A DNA stretch of 64,000 nucleotides from Massilia sp. WG5 (lineage in GTDB: Bacteria > Pseudomonadota > Gammaproteobacteria > Burkholderiales > Burkholderiaceae_D), in assembly GCF_001412595.2 (NCBI RefSeq), contig NZ_CP012640.2, positions 4,774,001-4,838,000 on the forward strand, in the 5' to 3' direction. Of the stretch, positions 38,124 to 45,302 are shown in pieces. The notes under the pieces were generated by a model, which had not been told where the DNA came from, did no database searches, and saw only the letters and a program-made list of their open reading frames with translations. Every line of letters starts with the position of its first letter. Position 1 is the stretch's first letter. The position numbers and the translations under genes are program-made.

Positions 38124-38184
38124 CTGTATTCCCGCGCCGCGGCGGCTTCTGTACGCGCCGCGCCGGACCCGGCCGGCCTACCAT
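38124..38184 (+). promoter_or_regulatory. Shared-architecture promoter 1 (fdhD)
   Basis: CTGTAT (38124-38129), 19 bp, CTGTAC (38149-38154), 24 bp, then -10 TACCAT (38179-38184). No -35 consensus is present, so an activator is likely needed. The ATG of fdhD follows the -10 by 7 bp, so the mRNA is probably leaderless. Four other promoters in this cluster have the same 61-bp layout. Confidence 0.75.
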
Positions 38185-38191
38185 CGGGAGC

Positions 38192-39010
38192 ATGAGAGAT
38201 ATCATTTCAGACGATGCCGCGCCGGTGGGACCGGCCGGCTTCCAGCTGCGGTCGATCGTGCGCCACCGCGGCGACAGCCGGGGCGAGGGGCACGACAGCG
38301 TGGCGGAGGAGATGCCGCTGGCGCTGGTGGTCAACGGCATTTCGCACGTGGTCATGATGGTCACGCCGCGCGACCTCGAGGCCTTCGCGGTCGGCTTCGC
38401 GCTGACCGAGGGGCTGGTCGACAGCCGGGCGCAGATCTACGATGCCGAGCTGCGCATCCACGCGCGCGCGGCCGAGGTCGAGCTGACCGTCGCGCAGGAG
38501 GCGTTCCAGCGCCTCAAGGGACGGCGGCGGGCGCTGGCCGGGCGTACCGGCTGCGGCGTGTGCGGCATCGAAAGCCTTGCGCTGCTCGACCTGGCGCCGG
38601 AAAAGATGGCGCCGGCGGCGCTGCCCGCGGACCTGGTGACGGCCATCGCGCGCGCCGCCGCGGAACTGCCGCGGCACCAGACCCTGATGCGCGAGACCGG
38701 GGGCGTGCACGCCGCCGCCTGGTGCGGGCATGACGGCGCCATCGCCGCCGTGTTCGAGGACGTCGGCCGCCACAACGCGCTCGACAAGCTGGTGGGGCAC
38801 CTGGCGCTGCAGGGTATCGACCTGCGCAGCGGCTTCGTCTTCATGTCGAGCCGCGCCAGCTACGAGCTCGCGCGCAAGACCGCGCGCATGGGCATCCCGA
38901 TGCTAGCGACGATCTCGGCGCCCAGTTCGCTGGCGGTCGACATCGCGGCGCAGGCCGGCTTGAAGCTGGCCAGCTTCTGCCGGCAGGATGGGTTTGTCGA
39001 ATATACGTGA
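38192..39010 (+). CDS. fdhD: FdhD sulfurtransferase for molybdenum cofactor of formate dehydrogenase
   Basis: A 272-residue protein with the invariant Cys121-X2-Cys124 pair (Gly-Cys-Gly-Val-Cys-Gly), at the same residue numbers as in E. coli. Phe-Glu-Asp-Val-Gly-Arg-His-Asn-Ala-Leu-Asp-Lys and Met-Ser-Ser-Arg are further family signatures. FdhD takes sulfur from IscS and hands it to the Mo-bis-MGD cofactor of formate dehydrogenases, needed for activity. The convergent neighbour encodes an FdhF/YdeP-family molybdoenzyme, its likely client. Both promoters carry the same direct-repeat element. Confidence 0.93.
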   Translation: MRDIISDDAAPVGPAGFQLRSIVRHRGDSRGEGHDSVAEEMPLALVVNGISHVVMMVTPRDLEAFAVGFALTEGLVDSRAQIYDAELRIHARAAEVELTVAQEAFQRLKGRRRALAGRTGCGVCGIESLALLDLAPEKMAPAALPADLVTAIARAAAELPRHQTLMRETGGVHAAAWCGHDGAIAAVFEDVGRHNALDKLVGHLALQGIDLRSGFVFMSSRASYELARKTARMGIPMLATISAPSSLAVDIAAQAGLKLASFCRQDGFVEYT

Positions 39011-39012
39011 CG

Positions 39013-39050
39013 CTGAAGGTCGTCCCCGCCTGCGCGGGGACGACCTTCAG
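39013..39050. terminator. Bidirectional hairpin between fdhD and the FdhF/YdeP-like gene
   Basis: CTGAAGGTCGTCCCCGC pairs perfectly with 39034-39050 (17-bp stem, CTGC loop). It begins 2 bp after the fdhD stop and covers the stop of the convergent gene. There are no T-runs. The GTCCCCGC/GCGGGGAC core is a palindrome often found between genes in Burkholderiales. Confidence 0.65.
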
Positions 39051-43905: not shown

Positions 43906-44190
43906 ATGGATGCGATCAATGTAGATGACCTGGGGATGAACGAGGGCGAGCTGCTGCTGGCCGGCCTGCTGGAACAGTTGTGGCGGATGGCGTTGGAGGC
44001 GCCGGCCAGGCCCTGTTCGCTGGCCAGGGTCAGCAAGCGCGTGCACCGCCCGATGAGCGCACTGATGCGGCAATTGAGCCTGCTGTCGGAAGCCGGCCTG
44101 GTCGCGGTCGACGCGCGCGAGGAGGGCGGCGGGAGCGTGGCCTTGACGGCGGCCGGCCGCGCATTATGCGCAGAATGGTTCGGCGCTTAG
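43906..44190 (+). CDS. Small winged-helix DNA-binding-like protein
   Basis: A 94-residue protein with a single MarR/ArsR-like winged-helix pattern: Leu-Ala-Arg-Val-Ser-Lys-Arg-Val-His-Arg-Pro-Met-Ser-Ala-Leu-Met, then Leu-Leu-Ser-Glu-Ala-Gly-Leu-Val. ATGs at 43813 and 43858 are in frame, but the -10 box six bases before 43906 would make the longer forms impossible from that promoter. It lies between nirC and moaA and shares their promoter type, so it may be a co-regulator of the molybdenum/formate cluster. I do not recognise a named family. Confidence 0.65.
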   Translation: MDAINVDDLGMNEGELLLAGLLEQLWRMALEAPARPCSLARVSKRVHRPMSALMRQLSLLSEAGLVAVDAREEGGGSVALTAAGRALCAEWFGA

Positions 44191-44197
44191 GAGGGGG

Positions 44198-45235
44198 CTA
44201 GCCGCCAACCAGCGACATGCGCACCACCGGATAGCGCTTGGCGCCGCCGTCGGCCCGCAGCGTGCCGCGCTGTTCGGAATAGCGGTCGGCGCGTGTTTGC
44301 CAGCTGACGCGGATTGCCTGCTCCAGCTGTCCGGCCCGGCCTTCGCGCAGCAGGGAACGCAGGTCGACCGAACGCGTGGCGAACAGGCACAGGAACAGCT
44401 TGCCGTCGGCGCTGACCCGGGCGCGGGTGCAGTCGCCGCAGAACGGCTTTGATACGCTGGCGATGAAGCCGACCTCGCCGCCGCCGTCGGCGTAGCGGAA
44501 ACCGTCGGCGGTATCGCTGGCGCGGCCTGCCTGCGGGACGAGGGCGAATTCGCCCTCGATCAGGGCGCGCATCCCGGCCGCCGTCACGACCTGGTCGAGC
44601 AGCCAGCCGTCGGCGCCGCCGACGTCCATGTATTCGATGAAGCGCAGGTTGACGCCGCTGTGGCGGAAGTGGCGCGCCAGCGGCAGGATCTGGTGTGCGT
44701 TGCGGGACTTGTCGATCACCGCATTCACCTTCACCGGCGCCAGTCCGGCGGCCAGCGCGGCCTCGATCCCGTCGAGCACCCGGCCTACCGGGAAGTCGAC
44801 ATCGTTCATGGCGCGGAACACGGCGTCGTCGAGCGCGTCGAGGCTGACGGTCACGCGCGCCAGGCCCGCATCCTTCAGCGTGCGCGCCTGCGCCGCGAGC
44901 AAGGCGCCGTTGGTCGTCATCGCGATCTCGACCGGCTTGCCGGCCGGGGTCTCCAGGCGCGCCAGCGCTTCGACCAGGCGCGGCAGGTCCTTGCGCAACA
45001 GCGGTTCGCCGCCGGTGATCCGGATCTTTTCCACGCCCAGGCGGACGAAGGCTGTCGACAGCGTCAGCATCTCGTCGAAGGACAGGCGCTCCGCCGCGCG
45101 CAGGAAGGGGTAGTCGCGCGTGAAGACCTCCTTCGGCATGCAGTAGGTGCAGCGGAAATTACACTGGTCGATGACGGAAAGCCGCAAGTCCTTCAGGGGA
45201 CGCTGCAAGGTGTCGATTGCTACGGAGTCGTTCAT
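44198..45235 (-). CDS. moaA: GTP 3',8-cyclase MoaA (molybdopterin step 1)
   Basis: A 345-residue radical-SAM enzyme. The N-terminal cluster motif Cys25-X3-Cys29-X2-Cys32 and the C-terminal cluster (Phe-Cys-Gly-Asp-Cys-Thr-Arg plus Leu-Cys-Leu-Phe) are both present. The C-terminus ends in Gly-Gly as required for activity. It converts GTP to 3',8-cyclo-GTP at the start of molybdopterin synthesis. Standing alone, away from other moa genes, and sharing a promoter type with fdhD and the molybdoenzyme, it may be a dedicated extra copy that raises cofactor supply. Confidence 0.95.
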   Translation of the reverse strand: MNDSVAIDTLQRPLKDLRLSVIDQCNFRCTYCMPKEVFTRDYPFLRAAERLSFDEMLTLSTAFVRLGVEKIRITGGEPLLRKDLPRLVEALARLETPAGKPVEIAMTTNGALLAAQARTLKDAGLARVTVSLDALDDAVFRAMNDVDFPVGRVLDGIEAALAAGLAPVKVNAVIDKSRNAHQILPLARHFRHSGVNLRFIEYMDVGGADGWLLDQVVTAAGMRALIEGEFALVPQAGRASDTADGFRYADGGGEVGFIASVSKPFCGDCTRARVSADGKLFLCLFATRSVDLRSLLREGRAGQLEQAIRVSWQTRADRYSEQRGTLRADGGAKRYPVVRMSLVGG

Positions 45236-45241
45236 GACCCG

Positions 45242-45302
45242 AGGATAGCAGCGCCCGCGTGCGCCGCGTGCATACAGTCGGGCCGCGGCGCGGCCAGTAC
45301 AG
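45242..45302 (-). promoter_or_regulatory. Shared-architecture promoter 5 (moaA)
   Basis: Minus strand: CTGTAC (45302-45297), 19 bp, CTGTAT (45277-45272), 24 bp, -10 TATCCT (45247-45242). The moaA ATG follows after 6 bp, so the transcript is predicted leaderless. Confidence 0.75.

Follow-up and report, generated by a model that had tools for sequence, protein, structure and literature searches.

A conserved direct-repeat operator and a candidate MocR regulon for a probable YdeP-type formate dehydrogenase in Massilia sp. WG5

A 64-kb stretch of Massilia sp. WG5 DNA (contig NZ_CP012640.2, positions 4,774,001 to 4,838,000), referred to here as the window, contains a gene cluster with a MocR-type regulator gene (mocR) in its middle. 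The original prediction, made from this sequence, held that the promoters of five genes of the cluster, namely fdhD, an FdhF/YdeP-like gene (ydeP), nirC, a small winged-helix gene and moaA, share one exact 61-bp architecture and form a MocR regulon for a formate or molybdenum function. The locus thus raises the question of whether this architecture is a functional operator, which protein binds it, and what it controls. Comparison of loci supports the claim that the sites make up one regulon. We consider it quite probable that the MocR protein, probably with bound pyridoxal 5′-phosphate (PLP), binds the direct repeats and activates ydeP, the gene of a probable formate dehydrogenase, together with a set of cofactor genes. 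The control circuit looks real and conserved, because the same operator precedes the same enzyme in relatives; it is apparently undescribed and is of a familiar general type.

The operator in the window and in related loci

The whole window was scanned on both strands with the 61-bp pattern YTGTRY-N19-YTGTRY-N24-TANNNT. Five exact matches and no sixth were found, and 100 dinucleotide shuffles of the window contained none. The fdhD operator is located at 38124..38184 on the plus strand; its direct boxes lie 25 bp apart and are followed by 24 bp and the −10 element TACCAT. The ydeP operator (41379..41439, minus strand) is situated within the divergent region shared with mocR. The nirC operator occupies positions 43767..43827 (minus strand), the winged-helix gene operator 43839..43899 (plus strand), and the moaA operator 45242..45302 (minus strand). 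All five promoters are thus present where they had been predicted, and each operator is directed at its own gene. If the transcription start is set 7 nt after the −10 element, box 1 spans about −67 to −62 and box 2 about −42 to −37, close to the earlier estimate of about −64 and −39.

Eighty Burkholderiales loci, the best 80 of 389 confirmed, were retrieved with the MocR protein sequence, and their 1.65 Mb was scanned on both strands for alternative spacings. A 19-bp gap between the boxes combined with a following gap of 23 bp gave 55 matches, and the same gap combined with 24 bp gave 34. The 1,114 control spacing pairs yielded 43 matches in total, at most two each, which corresponds to a mean of 0.04 per pair versus 89 for the two combinations; these loci are related to each other, so that the counts do not represent independent events. 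When box pairs were scored without the −10 element, the 19-bp gap was found in 98 pairs and the runner-up, a gap of 16 bp, in 15. The predicted spacing therefore holds for the gap between the boxes, which is fixed in the relatives, whereas the gap between box 2 and the −10 element is 23 or 24 bp and not always 24 bp. The YTGTRY core is likewise matched in the window, but the conserved boxes, approximately AACTGTAYYCC for box 1 and TTCTGTRYnC for box 2, are both longer than the hexamer. Fixed spacing amid divergent filler sequence is a strong sign of function.

Operators in these loci were assigned with a weight matrix (threshold 22) trained on the 80 loci, L001-L080, and the window. L032, in which the contig ends and no ydeP match is present, was excluded from the site counts. 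With the window included, the operator precedes an intact ydeP gene in 78 of the 79 entries holding ydeP, even in loci with a different gene order. In the 79th entry, L066, it precedes a broken ydeP, so that the expected conservation in relatives extends to every entry with this gene. The L066 locus (L066:7508-9837) comes from a Paraburkholderia metagenome-assembled genome titled as a symbiont; its ydeP is split across two frames, and mocR and the operator are kept.

The remaining targets are less constant. The operator was found before fdhD in 7 of the 20 entries having this gene. The other 13 are all Cupriavidus entries in which fdhD lies downstream of ydeP on the same strand, with gaps between the matches of up to 676 bp, and could share the ydeP promoter. 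The moaA gene is preceded by the operator in 9 of the 11 entries with a moaA match. A nirC operator is present in both entries concerned, the window and L001, and an operator before the winged-helix gene was assigned in the window only. Targets limited to single lineages are a chemoreceptor gene (MCPsignal) in L002, L004 and L008, a pyridine-nucleotide oxidoreductase gene (Pyr_redox_2) in L009 and a second ydeP in L024. The composition of the regulon thus has to be revised: MocR and YdeP form its constant core and fdhD and moaA belong to it in only part of the clade, while the operators of nirC and the winged-helix gene, counted as full members in the original prediction, are confined to two entries and to the window, respectively. 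Three related Cupriavidus loci (L072:18796, L074:18832 and L078:17945, all on the minus strand; scores 22.9 to 26.3) have a weaker operator-like site ahead of the gene for subunit I of cytochrome bd oxidase (PF01654). These sites are weak and were not used in the argument.

The candidate binding protein

The mocR gene (41487..42926, plus strand) encodes a protein with a GntR winged-helix domain (PF00392 at 4-67) and a class I/II aminotransferase domain (PF00155 at 149-463). The residues Lys316, Asn255, Arg323 and Arg446 of the aminotransferase pocket, which we take to have the same roles as in aspartate aminotransferase, are unchanged in all 81 sequences compared. Because these residues are conserved, MocR is likely to bind PLP; the pocket by itself does not point to a ligand, and the amine or amino acid of the original prediction would be a hypothetical signal.

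The link between MocR and the operator was assessed in 116 genomes drawn from the family of the window, with at least 60% identity as the criterion for MocR. Such a MocR is encoded in 18 of the genomes, and ydeP is present in all 18 versus 27 of the 98 others. A total of 57 ydeP-family genes were found, and the upstream regions of 55 were fetched; the window's own copy, which has the site, and a truncated gene of genome G380 were left out. The operator was detected before all 17 fetched ydeP genes located within 5 kb of MocR (scores 19.0 to 42.6); adding the window brings this to 18 of 18. The remaining 38 fetched ydeP genes all lack it; their scores do not exceed 0.6 (L153 has none above −20) and do not overlap with those of the sites. 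Ten of these 38 genes are paralogues within MocR-bearing genomes, including the second ydeP of the window's genome (C1:429297-431534; no operator in the stretch scanned), and 28 belong to genomes without a MocR of at least 60% identity, four of them from the genus of the window. Sixteen of the 17 fetched positives have no tested 200-mer in common with the loci used for training the matrix; the exception, L170 (G376), duplicates the DNA of L011. The operator before ydeP is therefore linked to MocR. Fisher p values take no account of kinship. Second MocR copies with 67-70% identity were found in genomes G264 and G408. A MocR match with an expectation value (E) of 1e-100 or better was obtained in 81 of 300 genomes of the order, and only nine have one with at least 60% identity over the full length.

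The pattern might in principle be a product of chance or of base composition. The boxes are short and degenerate, and the kinship of the sequences inflates the counts. The empty shuffles, the scarcity of other spacings in the 80 loci and the lack of the pattern before the 38 other ydeP genes speak against this explanation, to which we give almost no credence.

A different candidate for the binding of the repeats is the small winged-helix protein encoded at 43906..44190 (plus strand). A homologue occurs in 68 of the 80 loci, in all 18 genomes with MocR of at least 60% identity and in two others of the 116-genome set, and its predicted fold is indeed that of a winged helix. Thirteen genomes were searched for its gene with a 24-member profile. 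Among the 12 loci without a nearby copy, the gene is found elsewhere in the genome for L006, L009, L032, L056 and L061, and the genome of L066 has a partial match of 25.8 bits. No match above 20 bits was obtained in the draft genomes of L002, L004, L005, L007, L008 and L013, in three of which 150 of 153-170 candidates were scored, despite the presence of MocR and the sites. MocR is the more plausible binding protein, since MocR and the sites persist in these six genomes, where no convincing winged-helix gene is present. In a single converse case, genome G378, the winged-helix gene lies beside ydeP, the MocR found about 27 kb away has only 42% identity, and no operator is present. By analogy, a pair of direct repeats with a TGT core also suits a MocR protein. 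Binding by the winged-helix protein instead of MocR is therefore highly improbable. An absence of the winged-helix gene from Cupriavidus, suggested by a strict tblastn cut, was dropped, as the iterated profile finds homologues there. MocR, which the original prediction had named as the regulator, emerges as the best candidate, and the geometry of the promoters is compatible with activation.

Promoter geometry and mode of regulation

The end of box 2 is separated by 23 or 24 bp from the −10 element, which places it at about −37. At the 97 assigned sites, the window included, the best match to TTGACA with a spacer of 16-18 bp averages 1.9 of 6 positions versus 2.3 of 6 at 1,940 random positions, and four of the 97 sites reach 4 of 6. 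The sites thus resemble a −35 element no more than random positions do, which bears out the claim that this element is missing. The fixed distance to the −10 element and the absence of the −35 element suggest that the regulator is an activator at these promoters. We propose that a MocR/GntR-family regulator, probably PLP-bound, would occupy the two direct repeats 25 bp apart, the downstream box being positioned just upstream of the would-be −35 position. By analogy, MocR would bind as a head-to-tail dimer, contact RNA polymerase and activate transcription upon a small-molecule signal.

In 48 of the 49 ydeP sites with a 23-bp gap (L012-L080; loci labelled Paraburkholderia, Caballeronia or Burkholderia), the −10 element is directly preceded by a third box in inverted orientation. 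At this place none of the 44 assigned sites with a 24-bp gap, including the five of the window, has such a box. With the third box, MocR could repress in one of its states and activate in the other. MocR might thus be a repressor, or might act in both ways through a switch between direct and inverted half-sites. There are precedents for this: according to a survey of MocR regulons, PdxR activates one operon and represses its own gene, and PLP shifts its preference between direct and inverted repeats (PMC5320631), while OapR of Cupriavidus necator may have a dual function (PMC7057948). The 44 sites without the third box and the fixed spacing to the −10 element without a −35 element, as an activator requires, argue against repression, and we regard a repressing or dual MocR as possible but rather unlikely.

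The start codons of several genes lie close to the −10 element, in the regions 38185-38194 (fdhD), 43900-43908 (winged-helix gene), 45233-45241 (moaA) and 41481-41489 (mocR). The ATG follows the −10 element at a distance of 7 nt in fdhD and 6 nt in both the winged-helix gene and moaA. The probable −10 element of mocR, TATACT (41475..41480, plus strand), is inferred from the sequence and lies 6 nt ahead of the GTG start. The 6-nt spacing of moaA recurs in six of the nine site-bearing entries, including the window. Because the start codons are found 6-7 nt past the −10 element, the messages of these four genes are probably leaderless. In a wider and doubtful scenario, MocR would be a dedicated one-carbon (formate) stress sensor in many Burkholderiales that reads an amino-acid or aldehyde/amine signal via PLP, with activation through direct repeats, repression through inverted repeats at the −10 element in Paraburkholderia and Caballeronia, and an output of which, in the window, one part (moaA, fdhD and the winged-helix gene) would be leaderless.

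Function of the targets and relation to known systems

The ydeP gene (39047..41350, minus strand) encodes an FdhF/YdeP-family molybdopterin oxidoreductase (TIGR01701, 952.6 bits; cut-off 582.15). Its score against the Fdh-alpha equivalog TIGR01591, 207.8 bits, is far below the cut-off of 666.25, so the enzyme is not a classical FdhA/FdhF. A Cys-His pair of the protein aligns with the solved formate dehydrogenases 7qv7 and 6tg9 (chains), in which we take the Cys to be the metal ligand, followed by the His. The fdhD gene (38192..39010, plus strand) encodes a formate dehydrogenase accessory sulfurtransferase (PF02634; TIGR00129, 200.2 bits, cut-off 140.9); its product scores 181 bits against NF001943, below the cut-off of 269. 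The moaA gene (44198..45235, minus strand; TIGR02666, 339.6 bits, cut-off 284.05) is the second copy of the genome. The other copy (C1:2223933-2224955) has no operator in the stretch scanned. The gene at 42923..43729 (minus strand) encodes a NirC/FocA-like channel of the formate/nitrite family (PF01226), which scores below the cut-offs of both the NirC model (223.7 bits; cut-off 293) and the FocA model TIGR04060 (151.9 bits; cut-off 290.1). FdhD, the second MoaA and the channel fit formate oxidation with an extra supply of the cofactor.

In Pseudomonas putida, formate induces two enzymes of the YdeP family. Strains deleted for them tolerate less formate, and tolerance is regained with PP_0256-0257, which includes fdhD (PMC10308882). 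By analogy, the ydeP product is a probable soluble formate dehydrogenase of the YdeP/Fdh4A type, and formate oxidation, together with a second moaA, is the likely output of the circuit because the P. putida enzymes act as formate dehydrogenases. The core target would then be the YdeP/Fdh4A-type enzyme together with the sulfurtransferase FdhD, to which part of the clade would add a second MoaA, and single lineages the formate/nitrite channel, the winged-helix protein, the chemoreceptor and the pyridine-nucleotide oxidoreductase. The purpose would be the oxidation or detoxification of formate, with the supply of molybdenum cofactor raised alongside. Instead of oxidising formate, the enzyme could serve another purpose, for instance the acid resistance for which Escherichia coli YdeP is named; it scores 874.4 bits against the corresponding model NF007406, below the cut-off of 1473. 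The formate sensitivity of the P. putida deletions and its reversal, as well as the presence of fdhD and, in two entries, of the channel in the regulon, make such a role improbable.

The genome-wide frequency of the operator was assessed with a sequence model derived from 28 sites, from which the window and its nearest relative, L001, were left out; 150 of 5,616 first-look candidates in the 6.2-Mb genome were scored. The three best matches are all located in the window and precede fdhD (37 bits, E 2.5e-8), moaA (19.4 bits, E 0.009) and nirC (16.4 bits, E 0.08). No full-length operator was found outside the cluster among the scored candidates; the best match there reaches 15.0 bits and is partial, and the rest of the list consists of partial matches of at most 15.0 bits. 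The regulon in this genome seems to be confined to the cluster.

Several observations weigh against the proposed MocR activator of formate oxidation. Under the leave-out model the nirC site is not significant alone, and the genome scan, which ranked three of the predicted sites first, recovered no more than part of the ydeP and winged-helix gene sites of the window (13.9 and 11.2 bits); therefore, weaker targets may exist elsewhere. Two of the 11 entries in which moaA was matched have no assigned moaA site; in one of these two the match is partial. The strict YTGTRY pattern is violated in 4 of the 17 fetched positive sites, where box 2 starts with G. Asp284 of MocR is conserved in only 74 of the 81 sequences. 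In two genomes, a second MocR with 58-59% identity is encoded on a contig other than that of the ydeP genes found. Linkage would also be compatible with binding by another linked factor. Finally, the role in formate metabolism relies on homologues from another genus, P. putida, and deletion of fdhD in that organism is said to have left the release of CO2 from labelled formate nearly unchanged (PMC10308882).

The proposed regulon shares a number of features with the MocR/GabR regulons of PdxR, GabR, TauR, OapR and EnuR/EhuR: a GntR winged helix joined to an aminotransferase domain, a regulator gene beside its targets, and a near-constant spacing of paired direct repeats with a TGT core. In the 2016 survey, two direct boxes are reported in 70 regulogs, TGT or TGG is conserved in most motifs, and direct-direct-inverted is the commonest motif layout (PMC5320631). 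According to the same source, redox genes, cytochromes and oxidoreductases are frequent targets of MocR regulators, and bisC belongs to some TauR regulons; the words formate and molyb do not occur in its main text. In contrast to the known regulons, this one would control a YdeP-type formate dehydrogenase together with cofactor genes. The protein also differs from PdxR, its top NCBIfam match (NF052282), since it scores 270 bits, under the cut-off of 320, and no pdx gene is among the assigned site-bearing genes. Among the matches listed in the literature search, no title or beginning of an abstract named formate or molybdenum genes as targets of a MocR regulon.

FdsR of C. necator is a LysR-type regulator that acts on fds. 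The proposed circuit is comparable to it in the control of a formate-inducible promoter (PMC7057948), whereas regulator and promoter are different here. As for the enzyme, PP_0256-0257 and PP_4596 of P. putida and Fdh4A of M. extorquens are similar YdeP-family proteins. PP_0256 has fdhD on the same transcript, and neither MocR nor GntR occurs in the main text of that study of P. putida formate dehydrogenases (PMC10308882). With the present comparison, the MocR clade of Oxalobacteraceae, Cupriavidus, Paraburkholderia and Caballeronia gains a defined operator and target set, and regulation of the PLP type is linked both to cofactor supply and to what is probably a molybdenum formate dehydrogenase. 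The promoters of strict geometry can serve as material for studying transcription activation by MocR.

The winged-helix protein has no match in NCBIfam. Its predicted model (predicted local distance difference test score 88.4) gave chain 2obp_A as the top Foldseek match (E 2.7e-5; template-modelling score 0.74). The entry 2obp is Reut_B4095, titled merely as a putative DNA-binding protein, and this structure is now brought near a genetic context, in which the winged-helix protein is a frequent neighbour of MocR.

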